Origin: Ramlibacter sp. PS4R-6
GTDB taxonomy: Bacteria > Pseudomonadota > Gammaproteobacteria > Burkholderiales > Burkholderiaceae_C
DNA length: 64,000 nt
Assembly (NCBI RefSeq): GCF_037572775.1
Contig: NZ_JBBHKA010000001.1
Coordinates: forward strand, 1,426,001 to 1,490,000
Direction: 5' to 3'
Under the pieces are notes generated by a model. That model saw only the letters and a program-made list of their open reading frames with translations, was not told the DNA's origin and ran no database searches. The translations under genes were made by a program, and so were the position numbers. Below, in pieces: positions 12,728 to 28,741 of this stretch (within the stretch, counting starts at the first letter, position 1; each line of letters opens with the position of its first letter).

Positions 12728-13426
12728 ATGTCCGTCACCGAATTGCCGGCCCGCGGCCGCGCCCAGCGCGAGGGCCGGGCCTTGCAGAAAGGCCAGCAGA
12801 CCAAGGCGGCGATCGTCGACGCGGCGCTCGGCCTGGCCACCCAGATCGGCCTGGAGGGCCTGTCCATCGGCGCGCTGGCCGAGGTCACGCAAATGAGCAA
12901 GTCGGGCGTGTTCGCCCACTTCGGCTCGCGCGAAGAGCTGCAGATCTCCGTCATCCGCGAGTACCACCGCCGCTTCGAGGAAGAGGTGTTCTACCCGGCC
13001 ATGCGCGAGGGCCGCGGCCTGCCCCGCCTGCGCCAGCTCTTCGCCAACTGGATGAAGCGCACCTCGGTGGAGATCGACTCGGGCTGCATCTACATCTCCG
13101 GCGCCGTCGAGTTCGACGACCGGCCGGGCCCGGTGCGCGACGCGCTCGCCAGCTCGGTGCGCACCTGGCACTCGGCCATGAAGCGCGCCATCCAGTCGGC
13201 CATGGCCGAAGGGCACCTCGACACCGACGTGGAGGAAGAGCAGATGCTCTTCGAGATCCACGGCCTCATCCTCGCGCTGCACTACGAAGCGCGCTTCCTC
13301 AAGGACGCCGGCGCGTACGCGCGCGCCAACCGCGGCTTCGAGAACATCCTGCGCCGCTACGGCGCGGGCAAGGAAGCGCCGCCCGCGCGCGCCAGCAAGA
13401 AACCCACGAAGTCTCCGAAGGAGTAA
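12728..13426 (+). CDS. TetR-family transcriptional regulator of fatty-acid type operon
   Basis: 232-residue regulator. The N-terminal helix-turn-helix (about residues 22-70) contains the Ser-Lys-Ser-Gly-Val-Phe-Ala-His-Phe recognition segment, and the ligand domain is followed by a basic Lys/Ala/Pro tail. It is the first gene of the operon, 4 bp before the acyl-CoA dehydrogenase, so it probably senses an acyl-CoA and represses the downstream genes. No clear Shine-Dalgarno precedes the ATG; a TTG at 12719 is an alternative start. In Burkholderia the TetR protein FadP controls fatty acid degradation in a similar setting, but orthology is not shown here. Confidence 0.87.
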   Translation: MSVTELPARGRAQREGRALQKGQQTKAAIVDAALGLATQIGLEGLSIGALAEVTQMSKSGVFAHFGSREELQISVIREYHRRFEEEVFYPAMREGRGLPRLRQLFANWMKRTSVEIDSGCIYISGAVEFDDRPGPVRDALASSVRTWHSAMKRAIQSAMAEGHLDTDVEEEQMLFEIHGLILALHYEARFLKDAGAYARANRGFENILRRYGAGKEAPPARASKKPTKSPKE

Positions 13427-13430
13427 CACC

Positions 13431-15227: not shown

Positions 15228-15619
15228 GGCGTTCGCTGATCGTGTGCGCGGCGCTCGCCGCCCTGCCGGTGTTCGCGCAGCCGACGCCCGTCGGCCTGTG
15301 GCGCAACGTCGACGACAAGACCGGCGAGGTAAAGGCGGAGATTCGCATCGCCGAATCGAACGGCGTCGTTTCCGGCCGCATCGAGAAGGTGCTGTCCAGG
15401 ACGTCGAAGCCGGACGCCAAGTGCGACAAGTGCGAGGACGACCGCAAGGACAAGCCGATGGTGGGCCTCGAGATCATTCGCGGCAACAAGATCCTCGACC
15501 CCGAGAACGGCAGCGAGTACCGCCTGCGCCTGACGCCGCTGGAAGAGGGCCGCAAGCTCGAAGTGCGCGGCTACCTCGGCCCCTTCTACAGAAACCAGGT
15601 CTGGGTGCGTGCCCAGTGA
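15224..15619 (+). CDS. DUF2147 family exported protein
   Basis: 131-residue protein with an N-terminal signal peptide (residues 1-18, ending Val-Phe-Ala). The mature part matches the DUF2147 pattern: Gly-Leu-Trp...Asp-Asp-Lys-Thr-Gly, an 'ESNGVVSGRIEK' segment, a Cys-x-x-Cys pair and a late 'GPFYRNQVW' end. The fold is expected to be a lipocalin-like small barrel in the periplasm. It overlaps the acyl-CoA dehydrogenase stop by ATGA and precedes the fadB-like gene by 13 bp. Its job in a beta-oxidation operon is unknown. Confidence 0.8.
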   Translation: MRRSLIVCAALAALPVFAQPTPVGLWRNVDDKTGEVKAEIRIAESNGVVSGRIEKVLSRTSKPDAKCDKCEDDRKDKPMVGLEIIRGNKILDPENGSEYRLRLTPLEEGRKLEVRGYLGPFYRNQVWVRAQ

Positions 15620-15632
15620 CCGGGAGAACAAG

Positions 15633-18032
15633 ATGAACCGATTCAACGTGAAGAAAGTCGCCGTGCTCGGCGCGGGCGTGATGGGCGCGCAGATCGCGGC
15701 GCACCTGGTCAACGTCAAGGTGCCGGTGGTCCTGTTCGACCTGCCGGCCAAGGAAGGCCCGAAGAACGGCGTCGTCACGAAGGCGATCGACGGGCTGAAG
15801 AAACTCAAGCCGTCGCCGCTGGGCGTCACGGCCGACGCCGACCTGATCCAGCAGGCCAACTACGAAGAGAACATGGAGCTGCTGCGCGAGTGCGACCTCG
15901 TCATCGAGGCCATCGCCGAGCGCATGGACTGGAAGCTGGACCTGTACAAGAAGATCGCGCCCTTCGTGGCGGAGCACGCGATCGTCGCGTCCAACACCTC
16001 GGGCCTCTCGATCACGAAGCTGTCCGAAGCGCTGCCGGCAGAGATCAAGCCGCGCTTCTGCGGCATCCACTTCTTCAACCCGCCGCGCTACATGTACCTC
16101 GTCGAGCTGATCTCGACGCCGACGACGCAGCCGAAAATCCTCGACGACCTCGAGACTTTCGTGACGACCGCCCTCGGCAAAGGCGTGGTGCGCGCCAAGG
16201 ACACGCCCAACTTCATCGCCAACCGCGTCGGCATCGCCGGCATGCTGGCGACGATGAAGGAGGTCGAGAAGTTCGGCCTGAGCTACGACGTGGTCGACGA
16301 CCTCACCGGCAAGAAGCTGGGGCGCGCGAGCTCCGGCACCTTCCGCACCGCGGACGTGGTCGGCCTGGACACGATGGCGCACGTCATCAAGACGCTGCAG
16401 GACAACCTGAACGCCGACACCGACCCCTTCTACGACAGCTTCGCGACGCCGAAGGTGCTGGCGACGCTGCTCGAGATGGGCAACCTCGGCCAGAAGGCCA
16501 AGGCGGGCTTCTACAAGAAGGTCGGCCGCGACATCCTGCGCTTCGACCTGGAGAAGAAGGACTATGTGCCCGGCGGCGAGAAGTCCGACGAGGTCTACGC
16601 GCGCATGCTCAAGAAGCCCGCGGGCGAGCGCCTGAAGCTGTTGCGCGAGTCCGAAGGCCCGCAAGGCCAGTTCCTGTGGTCGATCCTGCGCAATGGCTTC
16701 CACTACGCCGCCGTGCACCTCGCGACGATTGCGGAAACCGCGCGCGACGTCGACCTGGCCATGCGCTGGGGCTTCGGCCTGAAGCAAGGCCCCTTCGAGC
16801 TGTGGCAGGAAGCCGGCTGGTCGCAGGTGGCGAAGTGGATCCAGGAAGACATCGCTGCGGGCAAGGCGCTGTCGAAGGCGCCGCTGCCGGAGTGGGTGTT
16901 CAAGGGCCCCGTGGCCGACGCGGGTGGCGTGCACACGCCCGAGGGCTCGTGGAACCCGACGGCGAAGAAGTTCCAGCCCAAGCGCGTGCTGCCCGTGTAC
17001 TCGCGCCAGCTGTTCCCCGAAACGGTCCTTGGCAGCAAGGCGCCCGGTTTCGAGACGGCCGGCAAGACGATCGAAGAGACCGATGCGGTGCGCCTGTGGA
17101 CGCTGGACGACGAGGTGCTCATCGCCAGCATCAAGACCAAGATGCATGCGATCAGCCCCGACGTCTGCGAAGGCCTGACGCAAGCCGTCGAACTCGCCGA
17201 GAAGTCCTACCAGGGCCTCGTGGTCTGGTCCGGCGACGAACCGTTCTCCGTCGGCGCCGACCTGCAGGGGCTGATGCCTGCATTCATGGCCGTGGGCGTT
17301 TCCGCCGTCGACGACGCCGAGGGCTACATGCAGCAGACGATGCTCAAGCTGCGCTACGCCACCGTGCCCGTCATCTCCGCGATCCGCGGCATGGCGCTGG
17401 GCGGCGGCTGCGAGCTGGCGGTGTATTCGAGCAAGCGCGTGGCCGCGATGGAAAGCTACATCGGCCTCGTCGAAGTCGGCGTGGGCCTCGTGCCCGGCGC
17501 CGGCGGCCTCACGTACATTGCGCGCCGCGCCGCCGAGAACCAGGCGAAGTCCACGCACAAGGACATCCTGCCCTTCCTCACCGACGGCTTCACGGCCGCG
17601 GCGATGGCCAAGGTCGGCACCAGCGCGCTGGAGTCGCGCCAGCTCGGCTACCTGCTCGAGGACGACATCGTCGTGCCGAACAGGGACGAACTGCTGTACG
17701 TCGCGATCCGCGAAGCCAAGGCCATGTTCGACACCGGCTACCGGCCGCCGCACAAGCGCTTGTTCCCGGTGGCGGGGCGCAGCGGCAAGGCGACCATCAC
17801 GGGCCAGCTCGTGAACATGCGCGACGGCGGCTTCATCAGCGCGCACGACTTCCGCATCGCCTCGCTGATCGCCAACGTGGTGACCGGCGGCGACGTGGAG
17901 ACCGGCACGCTCGTCAGCGAGGAATACCTGATGACGCTGGAGCGCCAGGCCTTCTGCGAACTCGTGCAGAACCCCAAGACCCATGAACGCATCCTCGGCA
18001 TGCTGAACACCGGCAAGCCGGTGAGGAACTGA
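15633..18032 (+). CDS. 3-hydroxyacyl-CoA dehydrogenase / enoyl-CoA hydratase fusion (FadB/FadN-like)
   Basis: 799-residue bifunctional beta-oxidation enzyme. The NAD-binding hydroxyacyl-CoA dehydrogenase comes first (Gly-Ala-Gly-Val-Met-Gly at about residue 13, the catalytic His in 'CGIHFFNPP'). The crotonase domain is at the C-terminus (about 480-700, with 'GMALGGGCEL' and 'VEVGVGLVPGAGG'). This order is the reverse of E. coli FadB and matches FadN-type proteins. The start at 15633 has GGGAGA upstream; a GTG at 15609 is the alternative. It lies 2 bp before the thiolase, the usual fadBA pairing. Confidence 0.93.
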   Translation: MNRFNVKKVAVLGAGVMGAQIAAHLVNVKVPVVLFDLPAKEGPKNGVVTKAIDGLKKLKPSPLGVTADADLIQQANYEENMELLRECDLVIEAIAERMDWKLDLYKKIAPFVAEHAIVASNTSGLSITKLSEALPAEIKPRFCGIHFFNPPRYMYLVELISTPTTQPKILDDLETFVTTALGKGVVRAKDTPNFIANRVGIAGMLATMKEVEKFGLSYDVVDDLTGKKLGRASSGTFRTADVVGLDTMAHVIKTLQDNLNADTDPFYDSFATPKVLATLLEMGNLGQKAKAGFYKKVGRDILRFDLEKKDYVPGGEKSDEVYARMLKKPAGERLKLLRESEGPQGQFLWSILRNGFHYAAVHLATIAETARDVDLAMRWGFGLKQGPFELWQEAGWSQVAKWIQEDIAAGKALSKAPLPEWVFKGPVADAGGVHTPEGSWNPTAKKFQPKRVLPVYSRQLFPETVLGSKAPGFETAGKTIEETDAVRLWTLDDEVLIASIKTKMHAISPDVCEGLTQAVELAEKSYQGLVVWSGDEPFSVGADLQGLMPAFMAVGVSAVDDAEGYMQQTMLKLRYATVPVISAIRGMALGGGCELAVYSSKRVAAMESYIGLVEVGVGLVPGAGGLTYIARRAAENQAKSTHKDILPFLTDGFTAAAMAKVGTSALESRQLGYLLEDDIVVPNRDELLYVAIREAKAMFDTGYRPPHKRLFPVAGRSGKATITGQLVNMRDGGFISAHDFRIASLIANVVTGGDVETGTLVSEEYLMTLERQAFCELVQNPKTHERILGMLNTGKPVRN

Positions 18033-18034
18033 CC

Positions 18035-19243
18035 ATGAGCAGACAAGTTCAAGACGCCTACATCGTCGCCGCCACGCGCACGCCCATCGGCCGCTCGCAC
18101 CGCGGCTACTTCCGCAACACGCGCCCCGACGACCTGCTGGCGATCGCGCTGCGGTCGGCCCTGTCGCAAGTGCCCGGGCTCGACCCGAAGGCCATCGAGG
18201 ACGTGGTGTGCGGCTGCGCGATTCCCGAGGCGCAGCAGGGCCTGAACGTCGCGCGCATCGGCGCCGTGCTGGCCGGCCTGCCCAAGAGCGTGGGCGGCAT
18301 CACGGTGAACCGCTTCTGCGCCTCCGGCCTGTCGGCGGTGCAGATGGCCGCGGACCGCATCCGCGTCGGCGAGGCCGACGTGATGATCGCCGCCGGCACG
18401 GAGAGCATGTCGATGGTGCCGATGATGGGCAATTCGCCCTCGCTGTCGCCCACCATCTTCTCCAACCCCGACGACATCGAGAGCTACGGCATCGCGTACG
18501 GCATGGGCCTGACCGCCGAGAAGGTCGCGCAGCAATGGAAGGTCTCGCGCGAGGCGCAGGACGAGTTCGCCTACCAGTCGCACATGAAGGCGCTGGCGGC
18601 GATGAAGGCCGGCGAATTCGCCAACGAGATGACGGAAGTCGAGGTCGAGGAGCGCAGCGTCGACCTCGCCTCAGCGGAAGTGAGCGTGAGCAAGCGCAAG
18701 GTCAGCCTGGACGAAGGCGCGCGACCCGACACGACGGTCGAAGGCCTGTCGAAGCTGCGGACGGTGTTCGCAGCGCGCGGCAGCGTGACGGCGGGCAACA
18801 GCTCGCAGACCTCCGATGGCGCCGGCGCGCTGATCCTCGCCAGCGAAGCGGCGGTCAAGCGCTTCGGCCTGACGCCGCTGGCGCGCTTCGTCAGCTACGC
18901 GAGCCGCGGCGTGCCGCCGCACATCATGGGCATCGGGCCGATCGAGGCGATCCCGGCGGCGCTGAAGGCCGCGGGCCTGAAGCAGGACGCCATCGACTGG
19001 ATCGAATTGAACGAAGCCTTCGCCGCGCAGTCGCTGGCCGTGATCAACACGATCGGGCTGGACGCGAAGAAGGTCAACCCGATGGGCGGCGCCATCGCTC
19101 TGGGTCATCCCCTGGGGGCCACCGGGGCTATCCGCTCGGCGACAGTCGTGCACGCGCTTCGCCGCAAGAATCTGAAGTACGGCATGGTCACCATGTGCGT
19201 GGGCATGGGACAAGGCGCAGCGGGCATCTTCGAACGGGTCTAG
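18035..19243 (+). CDS. fadA: Acetyl-CoA C-acyltransferase (thiolase)
   Basis: 402-residue thiolase that cleaves 3-ketoacyl-CoA. The acyl-accepting Cys is in 'NRFCASGLSA', the catalytic His in 'NEAFAAQ' context and 'GGAIALGHPLGATGA', and the final Cys in 'TMCVGMGQGAAG'. The length and C-terminus are normal. It follows the fadB-like gene by 2 bp with a GAGGA ribosome site, forming the last core step of the pathway encoded in this operon. Confidence 0.93.
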   Translation: MSRQVQDAYIVAATRTPIGRSHRGYFRNTRPDDLLAIALRSALSQVPGLDPKAIEDVVCGCAIPEAQQGLNVARIGAVLAGLPKSVGGITVNRFCASGLSAVQMAADRIRVGEADVMIAAGTESMSMVPMMGNSPSLSPTIFSNPDDIESYGIAYGMGLTAEKVAQQWKVSREAQDEFAYQSHMKALAAMKAGEFANEMTEVEVEERSVDLASAEVSVSKRKVSLDEGARPDTTVEGLSKLRTVFAARGSVTAGNSSQTSDGAGALILASEAAVKRFGLTPLARFVSYASRGVPPHIMGIGPIEAIPAALKAAGLKQDAIDWIELNEAFAAQSLAVINTIGLDAKKVNPMGGAIALGHPLGATGAIRSATVVHALRRKNLKYGMVTMCVGMGQGAAGIFERV

Positions 19244-19253
19244 GAGAACGGGC

Positions 19254-20117
19254 ATGAGGGCTGAAGTCATCGAGTCGAAGGACGGAACGAAGATCGCAGC
19301 CCGGGTGTTCGAGACACCGGGCCCCGCACGCGGCAGCGTCGTCATCGGCGGCGCCATGGGCGTGCGCCAGGACTACTACCAGCCGTTCGCGCAATGGGCC
19401 GCGCAGCAGGGCTGGCGCGTGACCACCTTCGACTACCGCGGCAGCGGCGACTCCGCGCCGGCGTCGTTGCGCGGCTTCCGCGCCGACCTGTTCGACTGGA
19501 CGCGCGACTACGAAGCGGTCGTCGATGCAGCGCATGCCGCGTTGCCGGGCCAGCCGCTGTACCTCCTCGGGCACAGCCTCGGCGCGCAGTTGCCGGGCCT
19601 GTTCACCAACCAGCACAAGGTGAGCGGCCTGCTCAGCGTCGCCGCCGGCAGCGGCTACTGGCGCGAGAACGCGCCGCAACTCAAGCGCATCGTTCCCTAC
19701 TTCTGGTTCGTGCTGGTGCCGATCGCCACGCGCCTCTTCGGCTACTTCCCGGGCCGCAAGCTGCGCAAGGTCGGCGACCTGCCCGCCGGCGTGGTGCTGC
19801 AATGGCGCAAGTGGTGCCTGTCGCCGCGCTACAGCGTCAGCGCCGAAGGCGAGGCCGTGCGGGCCAGCTACGCCAACGCCCGATTCCCGGTGCACGCGCT
19901 GTCCATCACCGACGACGAGCTCATGACCTGGAAGGGCACGCACAGCCTCATCGACCTGTACGAGAACGCGCCGCGCGAGGTGCGCAAGCTCGCGCCCGCC
20001 GACATCGGCGCGCGGCGCCTGGGCCACTTCGGCGCCTTCCGCCCCGAGAACGAGCAGCGCCTGTGGCCGCGCATCGGCGAATGGCTCGCCGGCCTGGGGA
20101 CGGCGCGCACCGCATGA
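19254..20117 (+). CDS. Alpha/beta-hydrolase
   Basis: 287-residue serine hydrolase of the alpha/beta fold. The nucleophile is in Gly-His-Ser-Leu-Gly near residue 107, preceded by the family strand 'TFDYRGSGDS'; a C-terminal His lies in 'RRLGHFGAF'. There is no signal peptide. The AGGAG ribosome site directly follows the thiolase stop. It overlaps the next gene by ATGA. In this operon it may release a CoA or alkyl ester; the substrate is unknown. Confidence 0.83.
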   Translation: MRAEVIESKDGTKIAARVFETPGPARGSVVIGGAMGVRQDYYQPFAQWAAQQGWRVTTFDYRGSGDSAPASLRGFRADLFDWTRDYEAVVDAAHAALPGQPLYLLGHSLGAQLPGLFTNQHKVSGLLSVAAGSGYWRENAPQLKRIVPYFWFVLVPIATRLFGYFPGRKLRKVGDLPAGVVLQWRKWCLSPRYSVSAEGEAVRASYANARFPVHALSITDDELMTWKGTHSLIDLYENAPREVRKLAPADIGARRLGHFGAFRPENEQRLWPRIGEWLAGLGTARTA

Positions 20118-20923
20118 GCGGCCCCCACCTGTTCGACGCGGGCGTCGCACTCGAGCCGGCGGGCGACGTCCTGCGCGGCCGCACGCGGCCCGAGTGGAAG
20201 AACTTCATCGGCCCGTTCGGTGGGTTGATCGCCGCGCAGGCCATGAATGCCGTGCTGCTGCACCGCCAGCGGCTCGGTGATCCCGTTTCTCTCACCGTGA
20301 ACTTCGCCGCCGCCATCGAGGATGGCGAGTTCGACGCCATCGCCACCCCGGCGCGCACCAACCGCTCGACGCAGCACTGGATCGTGACGCTGCAGCAAAA
20401 GGGCGAGGTGGTCGCGACGGCCACCGCGCTCACGGCGATCCGCCGCGACACCTGGGGCGCGAAGGAAGCGCCCGTGCCGCAGGTGCCGCGTCCCTCCGAC
20501 GTGCCGCTGCCCGAAGGGCCCACGCGCGTCGAGTGGGTCAAGCGCTACGAGCTGCGCTTCATCGAAGGCGGCTTTCCCGGCGCGTGGGACGGCGGCGACA
20601 CCGGCGCGAGCCGCACGCGCCTGTGGGTGCGCGACAACCCGCCGCGGCCGCTGGACTGGCTCTCGCTCACGGCGATGAGCGACGTGTTCTTCCCGCGCAT
20701 CTGGCTGCGCCGCGCGACCTTCACGCCGCTGGGCACGATCACGATGACGACCCATTTCCACGCGACGCAGGCGCAGCTCGCGGAAACGGGCACCGGCTAC
20801 CTGCTGGGCCAGACGCAAGGCCAGGGCTTCGGCGCGGGCTACTTCGACCACAGCGCGCAGCTGTGGAACGAAGCGGGTACGCTGCTGGCCACGACCAGCC
20901 AGGTCTATTACTTCAAGGAGTAG
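20114..20923 (+). CDS. Acyl-CoA thioesterase, TesB-like double hotdog
   Basis: 269-residue protein with two hotdog-fold halves (about 1-115 and 150-269), resembling the TesB/4HBT_3 thioesterase family. The N-terminal half has 'FIGPFGGLIAAQAM', the usual hotdog helix entry; the second half ends 'LLATTSQVYYF'. It is coupled to the hydrolase by ATGA. It likely releases free acids from acyl-CoA intermediates and protects the CoA pool during beta-oxidation. Confidence 0.8.
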   Translation: MSGPHLFDAGVALEPAGDVLRGRTRPEWKNFIGPFGGLIAAQAMNAVLLHRQRLGDPVSLTVNFAAAIEDGEFDAIATPARTNRSTQHWIVTLQQKGEVVATATALTAIRRDTWGAKEAPVPQVPRPSDVPLPEGPTRVEWVKRYELRFIEGGFPGAWDGGDTGASRTRLWVRDNPPRPLDWLSLTAMSDVFFPRIWLRRATFTPLGTITMTTHFHATQAQLAETGTGYLLGQTQGQGFGAGYFDHSAQLWNEAGTLLATTSQVYYFKE

Positions 20924-20927
20924 CGGC

Positions 20928-21524
20928 ATGGGCAAGCGCGTGGAGTTCTGGTTCGACGTCGGCAGCCCGGCGTCGTACTTGGCGTGGCACCGCCTGCCGC
21001 GCGTCGCGCAGGAGGCCGGCGCCACGATCGACTACCGCCCCATGCTGCTCGGCGGCGTCTTCCAGTCCACCGGCAACCAGTCGCCGATGATGGTCGCGGC
21101 CAAGGGCAAGTGGATGCAGGGCGACCTCGAGCGCTTCGCCGCGCGCGACGGCACGCCCTACCGCCACAACCCGCATTTCCCGATCAACACGCTGGTGCTG
21201 ATGCGCGGTGCCCTCGGCCTGCAGATGCGCGATCCCGGGCGGTTCGTGCCGTACGTCGACACGGTGTACCGCGCGATCTGGGCCGAAGGGCTGAACATGA
21301 ACGACCCGGGCGTCGTCGCCGGCGTGCTCGACGCCGCGGGCTTCGAGCCGCAGGCGGTGCTGGCGCTCACGGCCGACCCGCAGGTGAAGGAAAAACTCAA
21401 GGCCGTCACGGCCGAAGCGGTGGAGCGCGGCGTGTTCGGCGCGCCCACCTTCTTCGTCGACGGCGCCATGTACTGGGGCCAGGACCGGCTCGATTTCGTC
21501 GAAGAAGCACTCAAGAAGGCATGA
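20928..21524 (+). CDS. DsbA-family 2-hydroxychromene-2-carboxylate isomerase-like protein
   Basis: 198-residue thioredoxin-fold protein of the GST-kappa/HCCA isomerase type. It begins 'VEFWFDVGSPASYLAW', where the Ser is the usual glutathione-contacting residue, and ends with the cis-Pro motif 'VFGAPTFFVDG'. It has no Cys-x-x-Cys, so it is not a disulfide oxidoreductase. AAGGAG lies before the ATG. Such genes are common inside acyl-CoA operons of Burkholderiales; the substrate is unknown. Confidence 0.83.
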   Translation: MGKRVEFWFDVGSPASYLAWHRLPRVAQEAGATIDYRPMLLGGVFQSTGNQSPMMVAAKGKWMQGDLERFAARDGTPYRHNPHFPINTLVLMRGALGLQMRDPGRFVPYVDTVYRAIWAEGLNMNDPGVVAGVLDAAGFEPQAVLALTADPQVKEKLKAVTAEAVERGVFGAPTFFVDGAMYWGQDRLDFVEEALKKA

Positions 21525-21526
21525 CC

Positions 21527-22291
21527 ATGCAAGAGATCCTCGTCAACGCCGAAGGCGGCGTCACCACCATCACGCTCAACCGCCTGGACCGCAAGAACTC
21601 CATCACCGCCGACATGTACGGCGCCATCGCCGATGCGCTGGCCACGGCCGAAGCCGACGCCGCCACGCGTGTGGTCGTCATCCAGGGGCACGAAACCGTG
21701 TTCTCCGCGGGCAACGACATCGGCGACTTCCTGAACAAGCCGCCGGCCGGGCGCGACTCGCCCGTCTTCCGCTTCCTGCGCGGCATCGCCACCTTCAGCA
21801 AGCCGCTCGTGGCGGCGGTGTGCGGGCCCGCCGTCGGCGTGGGCACCACGATGCTGTTCCATTGCGACCTGGTCTATGCCGGCGACAACGCGGCGTTCTC
21901 CATGCCGTTCGTGAACCTGGGGCTGGTGCCCGAAGCCGCGTCGAGCCTGCTGGTGCCGCAGATGCTGGGCTACCACCGCGCCGCCGAAGCGCTGATGCTG
22001 GGCGAGCCCTTCATGGCCGAAGCGGCGCTCGAAGTGGGGCTGGTCAACCGCGTGCTGCCGCCCACCGAGGCCAACCAGTACGCGCAGCAGGTGGCGCGCA
22101 AGCTGGCGGCCAAGCCGCTGTCGTCGCTGGTCGCCACCAAGCGGCTGATGAAGAAGGGCCGCCAGGATGCGGTCCTGGCGCAGATGGAAGAGGAAGGCGC
22201 CCTCTTCTCGAAGATGCTGGGCGAGCCGGCCGCGAAGGAGGCTTTCGGCGCCTTCATGGCCAAGCGCAAGCCCGATTTCTCGAACCTGTAA
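21527..22291 (+). CDS. Enoyl-CoA hydratase/isomerase family protein
   Basis: 254-residue crotonase. The oxyanion-hole motif is 'FSAGNDIGDF' and the second motif 'CGPAVGVGTTMLFHCDLVYA' is intact, followed by 'FVNLGLVPEAASS'. I prefer the ATG at 21527, which has AAGG at proper distance; the ATG at 21521 overlaps the previous stop and is possible. The active site has Glu in 'LVPEAAS' but not the usual Glu at the first position, so it may be an isomerase rather than a hydratase. It is the last gene of the beta-oxidation run and is followed by a hairpin. Confidence 0.87.
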   Translation: MQEILVNAEGGVTTITLNRLDRKNSITADMYGAIADALATAEADAATRVVVIQGHETVFSAGNDIGDFLNKPPAGRDSPVFRFLRGIATFSKPLVAAVCGPAVGVGTTMLFHCDLVYAGDNAAFSMPFVNLGLVPEAASSLLVPQMLGYHRAAEALMLGEPFMAEAALEVGLVNRVLPPTEANQYAQQVARKLAAKPLSSLVATKRLMKKGRQDAVLAQMEEEGALFSKMLGEPAAKEAFGAFMAKRKPDFSNL

Positions 22292-22310
22292 GGGCCCCGG
22301 CGGGCCCCTT
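22291..22310 (+). terminator. GC-rich hairpin after the beta-oxidation operon
   Basis: An AAGGGCCC/GGGCCCCTT stem with one bulged C sits directly at the stop codon of the enoyl-CoA hydratase gene. Only a short TTG follows, so it is a weak or partial intrinsic terminator. It separates the beta-oxidation operon from the kinase gene 35 bp downstream. Confidence 0.4.
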
Positions 22311-22325
22311 GTGCCGGGGGCGGGG

Positions 22326-23666
22326 ATGAGCGACCATCGCGTTTCCATGGCCGCGACCGATACGCCGACCTTCATCGGCAAGTACAACGTCCTTCGCGAA
22401 CTCGGGCGGGGGGCCAGCAGCACCGTCTACCTCGCGGAGGACCCGTTCCACGCGCGCAAGGTGGCGGTCAAGCGCATCCATGCGCACCTGCTCACGGACG
22501 AACGCCAGGCCGCGCGCTACCGCAAGGCGCTGCGCAACGAGGCGCTCCTGGCCGGCCAGCTGAAGCACCCGCACATCGTCACCGTCCACGACGCCGACGG
22601 CGAGGCCAACCCGCCCTACCTGGTGCTCGAATACGTGGAGGGCGCTGCGCTGTCCCGGTTCACGCGCCCCGACCGCCTGCTGCCCGTGGAGCAGGTGCTG
22701 GACATCTGCTACAAGGTTTGTAGCGCCCTGGACTACGCGCACACGCGCGGCCTCGTGCACCGCGACATCAAGCCGGCCAACCTGATGCTGCAGACCAGCG
22801 GCGACGTGAAGGTGATGGACTTCGGCACGGCACTGGCCACCGGCGGCGAGATCACGCAGATCAGCGGCTTCGTCGGCTCGCCCCAGTACATGTCGCCCGA
22901 GCACGTGCGCGAAGAGGGCTGCACCTGGCGCAGCGACATGTGGTCCCTCGGCGTGGTCTGCTACGAGATGCTCACGGGCCGCCGGCCCTTCGAGAGCGAA
23001 TCGGACTTCACCACCATCTACAAGATCACCAACGAGGAGCCCACCCAGCCCAGCACCCTGCGGCCCGGGCTGCCCGAGCAGGTGGACAAGGTTCTGATGC
23101 GCGCCCTGGCCAAGCACCCCGAGGCGCGGTTCAAGCAGTGGATGGACTTCGCCGACTCGCTGCTGCAGATCAACCGCGGCATGTCGGCCAAGACCGCGCG
23201 CCACCGCGAGGGCGACGCCTTCGCGCGCATGCGCGACCTGCCGTTCTTCCAGGGCTTCCCCGACGCGGTGCTGTGGGAGGCGCTGCGCCTGGGCACGCTG
23301 TCGCTGCGCCCGGCCGACACGGTGCTGATGGAAGAGGGCTCGATGGGCGAGTCCTTCCTGCTGCTGTTGCAAGGCACGGCCGCCGTCATGCGCGACAACA
23401 ACAAGGTCGCCACGCTGGACCCGGGCGTCACCCTGGGCGAGATGGCCTACCTGCGGCGCGATGAGCCCAAGCGCACGGCCACCGTCAAGGCGGACACCGC
23501 GGTGCTGGTGCTCGAGATCAAGAACGAGGCCCTGCACCGGGCGTCGGAAGAGCTGCAGATCTGCTTCGACAAGGCCTTCATCGAGCTGCTGCTGCAGCGC
23601 CTGATGCGCACGACCGAGTCGCTGAGCAAGCTGCAGTCGTCCAGCCTCACGCTCGAAGGCCATTGA
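22326..23666 (+). CDS. Serine/threonine protein kinase fused to a cyclic-nucleotide-binding domain
   Basis: 446-residue soluble protein. Residues 20-280 are a Hanks-type kinase with a complete active site: Gly-rich loop 'GRGASSTVY', Lys49, His-Arg-Asp at 145-147, Asp-Phe-Gly at 165-167 and Ser-Pro-Glu at 190-192. Residues about 300-425 form a cNMP-binding-like domain that keeps the Gly-Glu (Glu372) and Arg-Thr-Ala (Arg383) of the phosphate-binding cassette, the residues that normally hold ribose and phosphate. There is no membrane segment or PASTA repeat. The start at 22326 gives the full kinase N-lobe. It is the first of four tightly spaced genes ending with an adenylate cyclase and a STAS-like protein. 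The layout resembles PKG/PKA chemistry in one chain; activation by cAMP is inference. Confidence 0.9.
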   Translation: MSDHRVSMAATDTPTFIGKYNVLRELGRGASSTVYLAEDPFHARKVAVKRIHAHLLTDERQAARYRKALRNEALLAGQLKHPHIVTVHDADGEANPPYLVLEYVEGAALSRFTRPDRLLPVEQVLDICYKVCSALDYAHTRGLVHRDIKPANLMLQTSGDVKVMDFGTALATGGEITQISGFVGSPQYMSPEHVREEGCTWRSDMWSLGVVCYEMLTGRRPFESESDFTTIYKITNEEPTQPSTLRPGLPEQVDKVLMRALAKHPEARFKQWMDFADSLLQINRGMSAKTARHREGDAFARMRDLPFFQGFPDAVLWEALRLGTLSLRPADTVLMEEGSMGESFLLLLQGTAAVMRDNNKVATLDPGVTLGEMAYLRRDEPKRTATVKADTAVLVLEIKNEALHRASEELQICFDKAFIELLLQRLMRTTESLSKLQSSSLTLEGH

Positions 23667-23670
23667 CGCG

Positions 23671-24501
23671 ATGACGCTCAAGGGCCGCACGCTCTTCATC
23701 ACCGGCGCGTCGCGCGGCATCGGCCTGGCGATCGGCAAGCGCGCGGCGGCCGACGGCGCCAACATCGTCATCGCCGCCAAGACCACCGACCCCAACCCGA
23801 AGCTGCCCGGCACCATCTACTCGGCGGCCGAGGAGATCCGCGCCGCGGGCGGGCAGGCCTTGCCGCTGGCGGTGGACATCCGCGACGAGGAGGGCGTGCT
23901 CGCCGCCGTGGCGAAGGCCGTGCAGGAGTTCGGCGGCATCGACGTGCTGGTGAACAACGCCAGCGCGATCAGCCTGACGGACACCGAGCACACGCCGATG
24001 AAGCGCTACGACCTGATGAACGGGATCAACGCGCGCGGCACCTACTTGTGCACGCAGGCCTGCCTGCCGCAGCTGCAGAAGGCAGCCGGGGCGGGGCGCA
24101 ACGCGCACGTGCTGAACATGTCGCCGCCGCTGTCCATGAAGCAGCACTGGTTCGCGCCGCACACCGCCTACACCATGGCCAAGTACGGCATGAGCATGTG
24201 CACGCTGGGCCACTCGGGCGAATTCGCGAAGTACGGCATCGCGGTGAACAGCCTGTGGCCGCGCACGGCGATCGCCACCGCGGCGCTGCAGATGATCCCC
24301 GGTGTGGATCTCAACCTGTGCCGCAAGCCGGAGATCCTGGCCGACGCCGCGTACTTCATCCTCACGAGCGACGCGAAGACGACCACGGGCAACTTCTTCA
24401 TCGACGACGAACTGCTCGCGAAGCACGGCGTGACCGACCTGGAGCAGTACTCGGTCAAGCCCGGTACCAGGAAGTTCATCCCGGATTTCTTCGTCGACTG
24501 A
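23671..24501 (+). CDS. SDR-family oxidoreductase, HSDL2-like
   Basis: 276-residue short-chain dehydrogenase with 'GASRGIGLAIGKRAA', 'VNNASAISL', a catalytic Tyr-Thr-Met-Ala-Lys and the Ser of 'NMSPP'. The long insert after the second strand ('TTDPNPKLPGTIY') and the 'FIDDELL' C-terminal segment are features of the hydroxysteroid dehydrogenase-like 2 group, linked to fatty acid metabolism. It lies 4 bp after the kinase gene and 9 bp before the cyclase, inside the signalling run. It may be a kinase target or simply a metabolic passenger. Confidence 0.87.
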   Translation: MTLKGRTLFITGASRGIGLAIGKRAAADGANIVIAAKTTDPNPKLPGTIYSAAEEIRAAGGQALPLAVDIRDEEGVLAAVAKAVQEFGGIDVLVNNASAISLTDTEHTPMKRYDLMNGINARGTYLCTQACLPQLQKAAGAGRNAHVLNMSPPLSMKQHWFAPHTAYTMAKYGMSMCTLGHSGEFAKYGIAVNSLWPRTAIATAALQMIPGVDLNLCRKPEILADAAYFILTSDAKTTTGNFFIDDELLAKHGVTDLEQYSVKPGTRKFIPDFFVD

Positions 24502-24510
24502 CGGCGCGCG

Positions 24511-25785
24511 ATGGAGGCCGCGTATCCCTACCGGCTCCTGACCCTGCGCTTCCACGACCGGCAGGCGGAAGCCGCCTTCGCTGCGGAAAGGGCGCTGCGG
24601 CTGGTCCGCCCGTTCCGTTGGGTCGTGGCCATCCTCGCGGCGCTGTCGTTGCTCGTCGGTGTTGCGATCACGGTGATCGCACCCGAGTCGACAGCGCTCC
24701 TGAACCGCACGCTCCTGCCTTCGCTCGTGCTCTCGGCAGCCTCGCTGGCGGTCACCTGGCATCCCGTCTTCATCGCGCGGCAGCAGGCCGTGGTCGGCAG
24801 CGTCATCACGCTGGCCGTCCTGGCCACCTTGAACATGGCCGTGCAGTACCCGACGGAGAGGTTCCTCGCATCCGGCTTCTTCCTGCCGGCGGTACAGACG
24901 TTCTGCATCTATGCGCTCGTCGGGCTGCGGTTCCCGCTCGCCGTGGCGCTTGGCTGGGCCATGCTCGCCGGCTACGCAGCCATCGCGCATGTCGTGCACG
25001 GCCTCGCGGGCCCCGCGCTCGCGCGCCAGGTCCTCGCACTGGTGCTCGTGAACCTCGTGGGCATGCTCGCCGGCTGGCAGCTCGAGGCCGCGACGCGGCG
25101 CGCGTTCCTCGGGCGGCGCGCGGTCGAGCACGAGCGCGCCCGTTCGGAGGCCCTGCTGCTGAACATCCTGCCGGCGCCGATCGCCGAAAGGCTCAAGAAC
25201 TCTCCCGGAACGATTGCCGAAGCGCACCCGTCGGTCACCGTGCTGTTCGCCGACATCGCGGGGTTCACGACCTGGTGCGCCACGCGCAATGCCGCCAGCG
25301 TGGTGCAGATGCTGGACCGCGTGTTCACCGCGTTCGACGCGCTCGCCGCGCGGCACGGGCTGGAAAAGATCAAGACGATCGGCGACTGCTACATGGCGGC
25401 CGCGGGCCTGCCCAAAGCGCGCGAGGACCATGCGCAGGCCGCGCTCGCGATGGCCCGCGAGATGCTCGCCGAATGCGAGCGCATCGCACGCGAGACCGGC
25501 GAGCCGCTGCAGATGCGCATCGGGCTGAGCTCCGGCCCCGTGGTCGCCGGCGTCATCGGGCGCAGCAAGTTCATCTTCGACCTGTGGGGCGACACGGTGA
25601 ACACCGCGAGCCGCATGGAGTCGTGCGGCGAGCCCGGCCGCATCCAGTGCAGCGCCTCGACGGCGCGGCTGCTCGACGGCGTGGCCCTGGAATCGCGCGG
25701 CCGGGTGGAGGTGCGCGGCAAGGGGTCGATGGAGGTGTTCCTCATCGGCACGCGTACCGCCGAGGCAGCACTTGCGCTAGATTGA
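24511..25785 (+). CDS. Membrane class III adenylate cyclase
   Basis: 424-residue protein. Residues 1-190 contain about five to six hydrophobic helices (around 36-57, 68-85, 94-112, 122-138, 143-165, 172-190). A short signalling helix (200-230) precedes the catalytic domain (about 240-415). Metal ligands are Asp248 ('FADIAGFT') and Asp292 ('IGDCYM'). The adenine-selecting pair Lys288 ('IKTIG') and Asp357 ('FDLWG') and the transition-state Asn364 and Arg368 ('VNTASRM') are all present, so this should make cAMP rather than cGMP. No HAMP domain. It is co-oriented with the cNMP-domain kinase two genes upstream. Confidence 0.92.
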   Translation: MEAAYPYRLLTLRFHDRQAEAAFAAERALRLVRPFRWVVAILAALSLLVGVAITVIAPESTALLNRTLLPSLVLSAASLAVTWHPVFIARQQAVVGSVITLAVLATLNMAVQYPTERFLASGFFLPAVQTFCIYALVGLRFPLAVALGWAMLAGYAAIAHVVHGLAGPALARQVLALVLVNLVGMLAGWQLEAATRRAFLGRRAVEHERARSEALLLNILPAPIAERLKNSPGTIAEAHPSVTVLFADIAGFTTWCATRNAASVVQMLDRVFTAFDALAARHGLEKIKTIGDCYMAAAGLPKAREDHAQAALAMAREMLAECERIARETGEPLQMRIGLSSGPVVAGVIGRSKFIFDLWGDTVNTASRMESCGEPGRIQCSASTARLLDGVALESRGRVEVRGKGSMEVFLIGTRTAEAALALD

Positions 25786-25789
25786 CGGC

Positions 25790-26152
25790 ATGTCGCTGCA
25801 AGTCTCCCTAGCCCGCCAGGGGCCGGTCCTCGCCGTGAAGGGCAGCGGGCCGGCGAACCTCGCCGACCTCAAGGGCTTCGCGGACATGATGGCCACCGTC
25901 TGCCGCGAAGAGCAGCTCACGCACGTGCTGGTGGACCTGCTGGACGTCCAGCAACAGCTCACCTTCACCGAGCACCTGCAGCTGGGCGTGTACCTCGCCG
26001 AGCGCCTGCACTTCCTCACCAAGATGGCCTCAGTGGTCCCCGAGCAGATGCGCAGCGGCAACAGCGAGCGTGCCGCGCAGAAGTCGGGGCTGCAGATCCG
26101 CACCTTCACCGACATGGGCGAGGCACGCGACTGGCTGAAGCAGCCGGACTGA
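25790..26152 (+). CDS. STAS/SpoIIAA-like small protein
   Basis: 120-residue protein with a pattern of alternating beta strands and helices like the SpoIIAA-like/STAS group: 'HVLVDLLDVQQQLTFTEHLQLGVYLAERL' in the centre and 'SGLQIRTFTDMGEARDWL' at the end. It starts 4 bp after the cyclase stop, so it belongs to the same transcription unit. STAS domains often act as phospho-switch or nucleotide-sensing partners. A partner role for the kinase or cyclase is speculation. Confidence 0.6.
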   Translation: MSLQVSLARQGPVLAVKGSGPANLADLKGFADMMATVCREEQLTHVLVDLLDVQQQLTFTEHLQLGVYLAERLHFLTKMASVVPEQMRSGNSERAAQKSGLQIRTFTDMGEARDWLKQPD

Positions 26153-26186
26153 GCCGTCCGTATCATCGCGGCACAAGGAGGCCCGG

Positions 26187-26540
26187 ATGCCCTACATGCT
26201 CCTCATCCACGAACCGGTCGGCCAGCGCCAGCAGCGCACGCCGGCCGAAGGCGAAGCGGTGTACGGCCGCATGCTGCAGTTCGCCGATTCGCTCAAGTCG
26301 CGCGGCATCCTGCGCGGCGTCGAGTCGCTCACCTCGCTGGACGGCGCGTCGCGCCTGCAGGTGCGCAGCGGCAAGGCGCACGTGGTCGACGGCCCGTTCG
26401 CCGAAACCAAGGAGATGGTGGGCGGCTTCTTCCTGATCGACGTGCCCACGCGCGAACAGGCGGTGGCCATCGCGCGCGAATGCCCGGCGGCCGAGTGGGC
26501 CACGGTGGAGGTGCGCGAGACGGGCCCCTGCTATACGTAG
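26187..26540 (+). CDS. YCII/DGPF-domain protein 1
   Basis: 117-residue ferredoxin-like alpha+beta protein of the YCII-related family with the hallmark Asp-Gly-Pro-Phe-Ala-Glu-Thr-Lys-Glu motif at about residue 68. AAGGAGG lies before the ATG. DGPF proteins are known to be encoded beside ECF42 sigma factors, as here (sigma gene 0.9 kb downstream). Their biochemical function is unsettled. I saw no TGTCGA-type promoter in the 34 bp upstream of this copy. Confidence 0.85.
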   Translation: MPYMLLIHEPVGQRQQRTPAEGEAVYGRMLQFADSLKSRGILRGVESLTSLDGASRLQVRSGKAHVVDGPFAETKEMVGGFFLIDVPTREQAVAIARECPAAEWATVEVRETGPCYT

Positions 26541-26559
26541 ACGCCTAGGTAGCCGCGCC

Positions 26560-26586
26560 TGTCGAAAGGGCGCGGCGCGGATCGTC
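26560..26586 (+). promoter_or_regulatory. ECF42-type promoter motif (TGTCGA-N17-CGTC)
   Basis: TGTCGA at 26560-26565 and CGTC at 26583-26586 are separated by 17 bp, ending 28 bp before the second DGPF gene. ECF42 sigma factors are reported to recognise TGTCGA at -35 and a CGA/TC element at -10. The site sits inside the gene set that encodes such a sigma factor, so autoregulation of DGPF-VOC-sigma is likely. Confidence 0.65.
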
Positions 26587-26613
26587 GTGGGGATGTAACC
26601 ACCAGGAGCACCC

Positions 26614-27039
26614 ATGAAATTCATGATCATCGTGAAGGCCACGCCCGACTCCGAGGCCGGCCGCTTCCCGCCCGATTCCGACCAGCTGTTTCAGCAGATG
26701 GCGGCCTACCACGAGGACCTGGCCAAGGCCGGCGTGTTGCTGGATGGCTCGGGCCTGCAGCCGAGCAGCAAGGGCTGGCGCATCCGCTACGAGGCCGGCG
26801 ACAAGCGCCGCGTCATCGACGGCCCTTTCGCGGAAACGAAGGAGCTGATCGCCGGCTACACGCTCATCCAGTGCCGCAGCCGCGAAGAGGCGCTGGAGTG
26901 GTCGCGCCGCTTCCCCAACCCGGTCGGCCCGAACCAGCCGGCGGAGATCGAGGTGCGGCAGCTGTACGAGTTCGAGGACTTCGAAGGGCTCCTGAGCAGC
27001 GAGACCGAGGAGCGCTTCAAGAAGATCGGCTTCGAGTGA
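26614..27039 (+). CDS. YCII/DGPF-domain protein 2
   Basis: 141-residue DGPF protein with the motif Ile-Asp-Gly-Pro-Phe-Ala-Glu-Thr-Lys-Glu near residue 70. A longer acidic C-terminal tail ('EFEDFEGLLSSETEERF') is missing in copy 1. The ribosome site CAGGAG is good. It is preceded by a candidate ECF42 promoter and followed by the VOC and sigma genes, the typical ECF42 neighbourhood. The function of this family is not established. Confidence 0.88.
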   Translation: MKFMIIVKATPDSEAGRFPPDSDQLFQQMAAYHEDLAKAGVLLDGSGLQPSSKGWRIRYEAGDKRRVIDGPFAETKELIAGYTLIQCRSREEALEWSRRFPNPVGPNQPAEIEVRQLYEFEDFEGLLSSETEERFKKIGFE

Positions 27040-27050
27040 AGGGGATGGAC

Positions 27051-27464
27051 ATGGCGCGCCAGATCTTCGTCAACCTGCCCATCGCCGACATGAAGCGCAG
27101 CCGCGCCTTCTTCGAGGCGCTGGGCTTCACGTTCAACCCGCAGTTCACCAACGAGCAGGGCGCCTGCATGGTGATCGCCGAAGGCAGCATCCACGCGATG
27201 CTGCTCGTCAAGCCCTTCTTCCAGACCTTCATCGACACCGACATCGCCGATGCGACGAAGACGACCGAGGTGCTCACGTGCCTGTCGTGCGCCAGCCGCG
27301 CGGAAATCGACGAGCTGGTGAAGAAGGCGGTGGCCGCGGGCGGCCGCGCGCACCGCAAGCCGCAGGACCACGGTTTCATGTACGGCCACGGTTTCGTCGA
27401 TCCCGACGGCCACGTGTGGGAGCTGGTGTACATGGACCCCAACGCCGCGCCGCCGCAGGCCTGA
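27051..27464 (+). CDS. VOC-family (glyoxalase/bleomycin-resistance-like) protein
   Basis: 137-residue protein built of two beta-alpha-beta-beta-beta modules: 'QIFVNLPIADMKRSRAFFEALGFTF' opens the first and 'HGFVDPDGHVWELVYMD' closes the second. The C-terminal Glu of 'HVWELVY' and a His are usual metal ligands. The second ATG (27051) has the better-spaced GAAGG; the first is at 27045. It overlaps the sigma factor start by one base (TGATG). The substrate is unknown. Confidence 0.85.
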   Translation: MARQIFVNLPIADMKRSRAFFEALGFTFNPQFTNEQGACMVIAEGSIHAMLLVKPFFQTFIDTDIADATKTTEVLTCLSCASRAEIDELVKKAVAAGGRAHRKPQDHGFMYGHGFVDPDGHVWELVYMDPNAAPPQA

Positions 27465-28741
27465 TGCATTCGGCGACCCACGGCACGATCGCGGCGGTCT
27501 GGCGGATGGAGTCCGCGAAGATCGTCGCCGTCGTGGCGCGCATGGTGCGCGACGTGGGCGTCGCCGAGGAGCTCTCGCAGGATGCGCTCGTCGCCGCGCT
27601 CGAACGCTGGCCCGCCGACGGCGTGCCGGACAAGCCCGCCGCCTGGCTCATGGCCGCGGCGAAGAACCGCGCGCTCGACCACCTGCGCCACGCCAGGCTC
27701 GCCGCGCAGAAGCACGAGGAGATCGGCCACGACCTCGAAGCGCAGGAGGCGCTGATCGTGCCGGACTTCGTCGACGCCCTGGCCGCCGCGCAGGAAGACC
27801 CGATCGGCGACGACATGCTGCGCCTGGTGTTCACCGCGTGCCACCCGGTGCTGCCGACCGAAGCACGCGTGGCGCTCACGCTCAAGCTGCTGGCGGGACT
27901 GACGACGCACGAGATCGCGCGCGCCTACCTGGTGCCCGAGCCGACCATCGCGCAGCGCATCGTGCGCGCCAAGAAGACGCTCGCGGAAGCGAAGGTGCCG
28001 TTCGAGCTGCCGCCGGCGCCAGCGCTCGGCGCGCGGCTCGCGTCGGTGCTGGAGGCCATCTACCTGATCTACAACGAGGGCTACACGGCCACCTCGGGCG
28101 AGGACTGGCTGCGGCCCGCACTGTGCGACGAGGCGCTGCGCCTGGGCCGCATGCTGGCGGAACTCGCACCGGCCGAGCCCGAGGTGCATGGCCTTGTCGC
28201 GCTGATGGAACTGCAATCGTCGCGCGCCGCGGCGCGTGTCGATGCAAAGGGCAAGCCCGTGCTGCTGCTGGAGCAGGACCGCATGCGCTGGGACCGCCTC
28301 CTGATCCGGCGCGGGCTCGCCGCACTGGAGCGCGCGCACGCGGCCGGGGGCGACGCGGGGCCGTACCAGTTGCAGGCCGAGATCGCTGCGTGCCACGCGC
28401 GCGCCGCGACTTCCGATGCGACGGACTGGCAGCGCATCGCCGCCGTGTACGGCCGGCTCGCGAAGGCCGCGCCTTCGCCCGTGATCGAGCTCAATCGCGC
28501 GGTGGCGGTGGGCATGGCCGAAGGGCCCGCTGCGGGCCTGGCCATCGTCGACCGCATCGCCGGCGACAAGCAGCTGCGCAACTACCAGTGGCTCCCCAGC
28601 GTGCGTGGCGACCTGCTGTCCAAGCTGGGTCGCAAGGACGAGGCGAAAGAGGAGTTCGAGCGCGCCGCCATGCTCGCGGCCAACGAGCGCGAACGCGAGC
28701 TTCTGCTGGAGCGCGCGGCCGCCATGGGCCGCCAGCACTAG
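27464..28741 (+). CDS. ECF42-type RNA polymerase sigma factor with C-terminal TPR-like extension
   Basis: 425-residue sigma factor. Region 2 (about residues 10-80, 'SQDALVAALERWP' and 'PAAWLMAAAKNRALDHLR') and region 4 (about 120-170, 'EARVALTLKLLAGLTTHEIARAYLVPEPTIAQRI') are followed by a long C-terminal part with 'YLIYNEGY' and 'PSPVIELNRAVAVGMAEGPAAGL', characteristic of ECF42. No anti-sigma factor is adjacent. In this group the C-terminal TPR-like part is thought to replace one. Co-transcribed with VOC and DGPF genes. The inducing signal is unknown. Confidence 0.9.
   Translation: MHSATHGTIAAVWRMESAKIVAVVARMVRDVGVAEELSQDALVAALERWPADGVPDKPAAWLMAAAKNRALDHLRHARLAAQKHEEIGHDLEAQEALIVPDFVDALAAAQEDPIGDDMLRLVFTACHPVLPTEARVALTLKLLAGLTTHEIARAYLVPEPTIAQRIVRAKKTLAEAKVPFELPPAPALGARLASVLEAIYLIYNEGYTATSGEDWLRPALCDEALRLGRMLAELAPAEPEVHGLVALMELQSSRAAARVDAKGKPVLLLEQDRMRWDRLLIRRGLAALERAHAAGGDAGPYQLQAEIAACHARAATSDATDWQRIAAVYGRLAKAAPSPVIELNRAVAVGMAEGPAAGLAIVDRIAGDKQLRNYQWLPSVRGDLLSKLGRKDEAKEEFERAAMLAANERERELLLERAAAMGRQH

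Follow-up and report, generated by a model that had tools for sequence, protein, structure and literature searches.

The locus considered here lies in the genome of Ramlibacter sp. PS4R-6, within a stretch of 64,000 nucleotides (contig NZ_JBBHKA010000001.1, positions 1,426,001 to 1,490,000; hereafter, the window). Four genes follow one another there, encoding a Hanks-type Ser/Thr kinase with a C-terminal cyclic nucleotide-binding (CNB) domain, a short-chain dehydrogenase/reductase (SDR), a membrane class III adenylyl cyclase, and a SpoIIAA-like (STAS-like) protein (Table 1). Their coordinates, and the gaps of 4, 9, and 4 bp between the four open reading frames (ORFs), agree with those given in an earlier note on this DNA. 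That note regarded the four genes as a self-contained module, which does not hold: they are the end of a 13-gene same-strand run that starts at a TetR gene and consists mostly of beta-oxidation genes, and the SDR belongs to this beta-oxidation cluster. Upstream of the kinase, the run encodes, in order, TetR, acyl-CoA dehydrogenase, DUF2147, 3-hydroxyacyl-CoA dehydrogenase, thiolase, alpha/beta hydrolase, acyl-CoA thioesterase, DsbA-like, and enoyl-CoA hydratase proteins. The stop of the hydratase gene is located 34 bp 5′ of the kinase ORF, and no gap in the upstream run exceeds 34 bp; judging by this spacing, the run is probably transcribed as one unit. No internal promoter or terminator was found at 21400-26700 by simple consensus, a weak test in a GC-rich genome, and the idea of a module boundary marked by such a signal was dropped for this reason.

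Table 1. Features of the window, with positions counted from its first nucleotide.
Feature	Position	Strand	Basis
Ser/Thr kinase with C-terminal CNB domain	22326..23666	+	ORF; Pfam Pkinase residues 20-270 (E 3.2e-53), cNMP_binding 329-406 (E 7.4e-12)
CNB domain of the kinase (residues 329-406; Gly341, Gly350, Glu372, Arg383)	23310..23543	+	Pfam and alignment
SDR oxidoreductase, NF006133 subfamily, beta-oxidation core gene	23671..24501	+	Pfam adh_short; NF006133 430.9 bits (cut-off 250)
Membrane class III adenylyl cyclase, Rv1625c/mammalian type, 424 aa, putative helical membrane anchor and catalytic domain	24511..25785	+	Guanylate_cyc 236-412 (E 1.3e-60)
SpoIIAA-like small protein, 120 aa	25790..26152	+	PF11964, 27.5 bits (gathering cut-off 25)
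Upstream part of the run, nine genes	12728..22291	+	Domain assignments
Variable slot between enoyl-CoA hydratase and SDR genes, occupied in the window by the kinase gene	22292..23670	+	
Downstream genes: two YCII proteins, VOC protein, sigma factor; common to many congeners	26187..28741	+	

An AlphaFold2 model of the kinase-CNB protein has high confidence across most of the chain (pLDDT 92.2, pTM 0.89), and its kinase half matches Mycobacterium tuberculosis PknB (5u94; Z 35.4, root-mean-square deviation 1.5, 258 residues aligned); the fold search with this model returned kinase domains throughout and is silent on the CNB fold. The catalytic residues Lys49, Asp147, and Asp165 (the Lys, HRD Asp, and DFG Asp, respectively) are present in 101/101 distinct full-length kinase-CNB genes and, together with the fold, identify a Hanks-type (PknB-like) kinase. 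These 101 genes, which include that of the window once, are what remained of 103 distinct genes matched in the fetched loci after two had been dropped as not full length. The Pfam layout bears out the earlier description of a CNB domain fused in cis to the kinase, with the cassette residues Glu372 and Arg383, taken there to contact ribose and phosphate, intact at the positions named. Glu372 is kept in 100 of the 101 genes, Arg383 in 96, and both in 95. Along with Gly341, these residues were aligned by eye to what we take to be Gly169, Glu200, and Arg209 of PKA, in a numbering that is partly presumed. Judged from the alignments, the pocket is well conserved, yet this conservation does not settle the identity of the ligand.

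The cyclase, too, was correctly described as a membrane class III enzyme with its catalytic residues and Lys/Asp pair in place. Asp248, Lys288, Asp292, Asp357, Asn364, and Arg368, the residue set of the Rv1625c type, are present in the window protein and invariant across it and four relatives; we take them to be the two metal-binding Asp residues, the base-selecting Lys/Asp pair, and the Asn/Arg pair. By sequence, the PDB entries closest to it belong to membrane adenylyl cyclases of mammals and to cyclases of mycobacteria, Rv1625c included, with matches to the Rv1625c catalytic domain (4p2x; query 202-417, E 5.5e-57) and to 7yzi, presumably full-length Cya (query 121-417, E 1.4e-57). Membrane helices modelled at 17-56, 58-83, 85-112, 124-137, 141-161, and 167-219 would fit a six-helix anchor, the model being weak (pLDDT 63.4, pTM 0.49, 5 sequences); a Foldseek search with it gave matches that include AC9 and AC5, at low TM-scores.

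At E<=1e-70, this cyclase was found in 1/200 family genomes, namely the window's own; the other genus holders are G240, G201 (two copies), and G227 (two copies, one covering residues 147-415 only; G and L numbers denote genomes and loci, respectively). In both G201 and G227, one copy ends a cluster of acyl-CoA dehydrogenase, SDR, thiolase, and AceK genes (cyclase relatives ending such a cluster lie at L103:8450-10974, as a tandem pair, and at L105:9393-10193), and the second G227 copy faces TctC, AtuA ferredoxin-like, and AtuA genes of the terpene-utilisation type in convergent orientation (L104:9060-13036). By BLAST, an acyl-CoA-type gene occurs within five genes in 4/17 cyclase loci versus 3/69 kinase loci, two of the four (L197 and L198) being weak 24% matches; 7/24 cyclase and 4/73 kinase stretches without a called centre gene had been dropped from this count. 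Pfam, run on nine of the neighbour genes, added the AtuA genes of L104 but nothing similar in L102. The association of the cyclase with lipid genes is thus a lead only. Other membrane cyclases of the genus (L200, L202, L204, L205, L206, and L207) lie beside a 333 aa gene and a 646-676 aa gene, possibly forming a separate cyclase system. The SpoIIAA-like protein passes the PF11964 gathering score narrowly, and relatives at E<=1e-6 are found in 46/60 genus genomes, often in several copies; two SpoIIAA-like proteins have been described as resembling CRAL-TRIO lipid carriers (PMC2954212).

The SDR gene provides a reference point for the history of the site. At E<=1e-90, it is present in 30/60 genus genomes, that of the window included, and the proteins of the 29 others are 82-89% identical to it. 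The SDR locus was retrieved in all 29, as a set of 20 searched with tblastn, in which no kinase and no cyclase was found, and a set of nine searched with BLASTP and profiles on the called genes around the SDR, in which no kinase, CNB domain, or cyclase was found; a SpoIIAA-like gene occurs in one of the 29 (L166, 41%). The SDR is an ordinary core member closing the beta-oxidation set, and because congeners keep this locus without kinase or cyclase, the kinase, cyclase, and SpoIIAA-like genes are guests. Outside the genus, 53 genomes have a match, and short loci were obtained for 26: in none of these was a CNB gene or cyclase found, the hydratase gene adjoins the SDR gene in eight, a 213-250 aa gene lies between them in 16, and two are incomplete.

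The slot between the hydratase and SDR genes, which the kinase gene occupies in the window, holds no gene in 23/29 congeners and is filled in 6/29. In two of them (G255 and G245), the guest is a phospholipase of CNB-NTE P-loop-patatin architecture (L171:7029-8945 and L172:8832-10718), and in the other four it is a protein of 298-299 aa, assigned by Pfam to cytochrome c in L169 and L177; the slot proteins of L240 and L243 resemble these cytochrome c guests at the protein start.

What the window shows is two families, their parts intact, brought together in a single genome and placed inside a lipid-catabolism cluster. The favoured explanation, held tentatively at a probability of about 0.4, is a beta-oxidation operon that recruited a cyclic-nucleotide circuit. 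The conserved operon would have taken in three guests, with the kinase before the SDR and the cyclase and SpoIIAA-like protein behind it. Through its helical membrane domain, the cyclase would sense lipids of the membrane or free fatty acids, which would set its output of cyclic AMP (cAMP), and the cyclic nucleotide, presumably cAMP, would bind to the C-terminal CNB domain and alter the activity of the kinase, whether upward or downward. The kinase, in turn, would phosphorylate targets, possibly including the enzymes of the operon. This explanation draws on the intact catalytic and pocket residues and the conservation of the pocket, on the closeness of the cyclase to mammalian membrane adenylyl cyclases and Rv1625c, on the acyl-CoA dehydrogenase/SDR/thiolase genes (L103, L105) and AtuA-type genes (L104) adjoining cyclase relatives, and on the position of the nearest kinase relative, 1.1 kb from a receiver-cyclase.

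The lipid component of this explanation comes from published studies of related proteins. In Rv1625c, the membrane domain mediates inhibition by C18 mono-unsaturated fatty acids (PMC12505454), and cAMP from the M. tuberculosis cyclase Rv3645 controls fatty-acid metabolism (PMC9995111). Together with the lipid-carrier likeness of SpoIIAA-like proteins and the gene cluster itself, these studies suggest, by analogy, that the cyclase may report on lipids and that its cAMP may reach the neighboring kinase. The CNB-patatin phospholipase found in the kinase's slot in two congeners and the fatty-acid inhibition of Rv1625c keep this pathway idea alive. In its fullest form, a self-contained lipid-to-phosphorylation circuit would run within one operon, from fatty acids through the cyclase and cAMP to a cis-regulated kinase tuning beta-oxidation, with the slot as a recurrent socket for cyclic-nucleotide effectors and the kinase-CNB family as an unstudied bacterial counterpart of PKG; this extended version appears doubtful.

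Several findings weigh against the recruited-circuit explanation. Kinase or cyclase is found at the SDR site in 0/29 other genus genomes, and a class III cyclase lies near the kinase in only 2/111 other kinase stretches, both in the genus and neither with a cyclase of the window's type. These stretches comprise 13/13 other genus loci, 60/73 other family genomes, 20 order stretches from 19 genomes, and 18/80 named loci, namely those with a match reaching the CNB domain, at least one of which (Piscinibacter) apparently comes from the contig of another counted stretch; neighboring cyclases were sought by profile search, on all ORFs in the order stretches because the ORF caller, set for high GC, overlooked genes in loci of lower GC, and the flanks are unequal (~3 to 20 kb), such that distant cyclases could be missed. 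Furthermore, with 10 class III cyclase matches in the window genome, the operon cyclase need not be the source of the cAMP, and 2/73 other family genomes with the full-length kinase lack a PF00211 match at E<=1e-8 (G067 and G102 (65% complete)). The clusters of L103 and L105 appear to share a single inherited arrangement, and the G240 cyclase copy (L102) adjoins HPr-kinase and PTS genes, with no AtuA-type gene detected by Pfam. Finally, the Glu-to-Arg spacing of the phosphate-binding cassette is 11 residues in the window kinase and in 94/101 genes overall (10 in one), whereas it is 9 in the PKA and PKG consensus (PMC2246266); the window cassette is thus two residues longer than the canonical one.

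Many of these points are shared by the explanation that the genes are chance neighbors, in which the cluster takes up foreign genes freely, the kinase, cyclase, and SpoIIAA-like protein serve unrelated processes, and the kinase ligand comes from the general cAMP pool. This is a serious possibility, if short of an even chance. The exact pairing of kinase and Rv1625c-type cyclase was seen, among the genomes examined, in the window genome only, 109/111 other kinase stretches have no nearby class III cyclase, the genome offers 10 class III cyclase matches, and the other slot guests include cytochrome c. Against chance, a CNB domain is present in two of the three kinds of slot guest, as compared with non-kinase CNB genes at 2/1830 called genes in the fetched loci when the two slot guests are set aside, a rate that is an underestimate given that the profile was built from kinase CNB domains and the loci were chosen for other reasons. 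In addition, three different cyclase types, including that of the window, lie near kinases of a single genus: in L089, a receiver-cyclase is 1.1 kb from the kinase, with one opposite-strand gene between them, and in L098:594-3771 the kinase-CNB gene is divergent from a CHASE2-class III cyclase gene. Two of the 13 other genus loci have a cyclase within 1.2 kb versus 0.085 expected (at 9 kb, 0.44 expected, P 0.07), and the 60 other family loci have none versus 0.47 expected at 6.5 kb; the expected counts rest on manually transcribed tallies and rounded genome sizes, and the distances were chosen after seeing the data. The pairing with this cyclase was found here only, an outcome that the earlier note itself had named as refuting its proposal and that largely does so, softened by the receiver-cyclase and CHASE2-cyclase neighbors. 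The presence of kinase and class III cyclase in the same genomes was rejected as proof, since class III cyclases are widespread in any case (179/200 family and 60/60 genus genomes) and two kinase genomes lack one.

The lengthened cassette also bears on whether the CNB domain binds another ligand, such as cGMP, a nucleoside, or another small molecule, the adjacent cyclase then being irrelevant to the kinase. Thr384, which directly follows Arg383, resembles the PKG consensus rather than that of PKA, and the CNB of a trypanosome PKA binds nucleosides (PMC10959531). Nonetheless, Gly341, Glu372, and Arg383 are conserved, and Gly169 and Arg209 have been tied to cAMP-binding domains (PMC2246266); a different ligand seems unlikely.

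Least probable, to the point of being very hard to credit, is a dedicated four-gene eukaryote-like PKA module with the SDR as substrate and the STAS-like protein as switch, for which gene order and spacing speak. The idea that the SDR serves specifically as substrate of the kinase was rejected: as an ordinary cluster member, kept in 29 other genomes without kinase or cyclase at the site, it is a poor candidate for the role the earlier note gave it. The SpoIIAA-like relatives are multi-copy in the genus, with one in a single SDR locus of the 29, and a conserved kinase-SDR-cyclase-SpoIIAA-like quartet was likewise rejected, the set not having been found in any other genome examined. Of the miniature PKA/PKG pathway originally proposed, then, the domains, residues, cis layout, and kept pocket stand, and the four-gene unit does not.

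The same proposal held such an arrangement to be rare in bacteria, whereas the kinase-CNB fusion proves common. In whole-genome searches that scored the best first-pass candidates only (8 per genome in the family searches for kinase and cyclase), the full-length protein was found in 74/200 family genomes (90 matches minus 16 matching the kinase part only) and 12/60 genus genomes, both counts including the window, and 87/300 genomes of the order match the kinase at E<=1e-72, all matches listed reaching the CNB domain. Holders include, by name, Roseateles, Rhizobacter, Ideonella, Piscinibacter, Azoarcus, and Gallionellaceae. A scan of genome contigs with the window protein as sole query gave no relative, and a plasmid origin of the kinase was rejected because plasmid records gave no match at E<=1e-60. 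A literature search, which did not reach preprints or most subscription journals, turned up no paper on a bacterial protein of the kinase-CNB type.

Four other genus loci have the kinase gene flanked by mutS-anbu on one side and uppP on the other, and in a fifth, where the contig is short, uppP is seen; in the window's genome, mutS-anbu and uppP are present with no kinase between them. These gene names are readings of the sequences, Pfam confirming a proteasome-type protein for anbu. On a simple reading, the kinase gene moved from this site, although it may instead be a second paralog, given that G201 carries both kinds of kinase. In a tree of 22, the sister of the window kinase is G201 C35 (locus L089; support 98/96).

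In PKG, the CNB domains stand in front of the kinase, whereas in the window protein the CNB domain stands behind it. As in PKA and PKG, the window protein combines a kinase with a CNB domain in which the Glu for ribose and the Arg for phosphate are present, and it has both domains in one chain, as PKG does; it differs in its longer cassette, in a kinase domain nearest PknB, and in having one C-terminal CNB domain rather than two or more N-terminal ones or a separate subunit. The mycobacterial cAMP-dependent acetyltransferase Pat (NF058543), which acts on acyl-CoA enzymes, shares CNB-controlled protein modification but is not a kinase; its profile matches residues 308-405 of the window kinase (E 8.5e-8), far below the profile cut-off. 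Compared with Rv1625c (Cya), the window cyclase is of the same type by sequence and differs in lying in a beta-oxidation cluster. Bacterial CNB domains fused to kinases were noted in 2007 (‘Other_bacterial’; PMC2246266, Table 1), the same fusion as such, the available part of that source giving neither a function nor a cyclase neighborhood for them. Pkn2 of Myxococcus also unites a Hanks kinase and a class III cyclase, but in one chain and with no CNB domain mentioned in the available part of the paper (PMC1262709), and the TOMM kinase/cyclase fusion TIGR03903 likewise, by its name, joins kinase and cyclase in one chain, with no CNB domain in its description.

Two things deserve attention: a large kinase-CNB family with a lengthened cassette, and a slot into which CNB effectors of two unrelated kinds have entered. 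Should these kinases prove to respond to cyclic nucleotides, PKG-like enzymes would be present in much of Burkholderiales and related groups, and cAMP in bacteria, usually seen as acting chiefly via CRP-type transcription factors, would have to be granted a broader role. As a place to test this, the window is compact, with fatty acids as the candidate signal and beta-oxidation as the candidate output.

Two further arrangements of kinase-CNB genes were observed. At L090:9259-11411, the gene overlaps a convergent proteasome-like (Anbu-type) gene by 4 bp, flanked by mutS-like and uppP-like genes. In L148, L149, L150, L151, L153, and L154, paired kinase-CNB genes ~11-16 kb apart bracket a housekeeping-like region containing, by names read from the sequences, cytochrome b and c1-like, sspA/GST-like, and sucCD-like genes.

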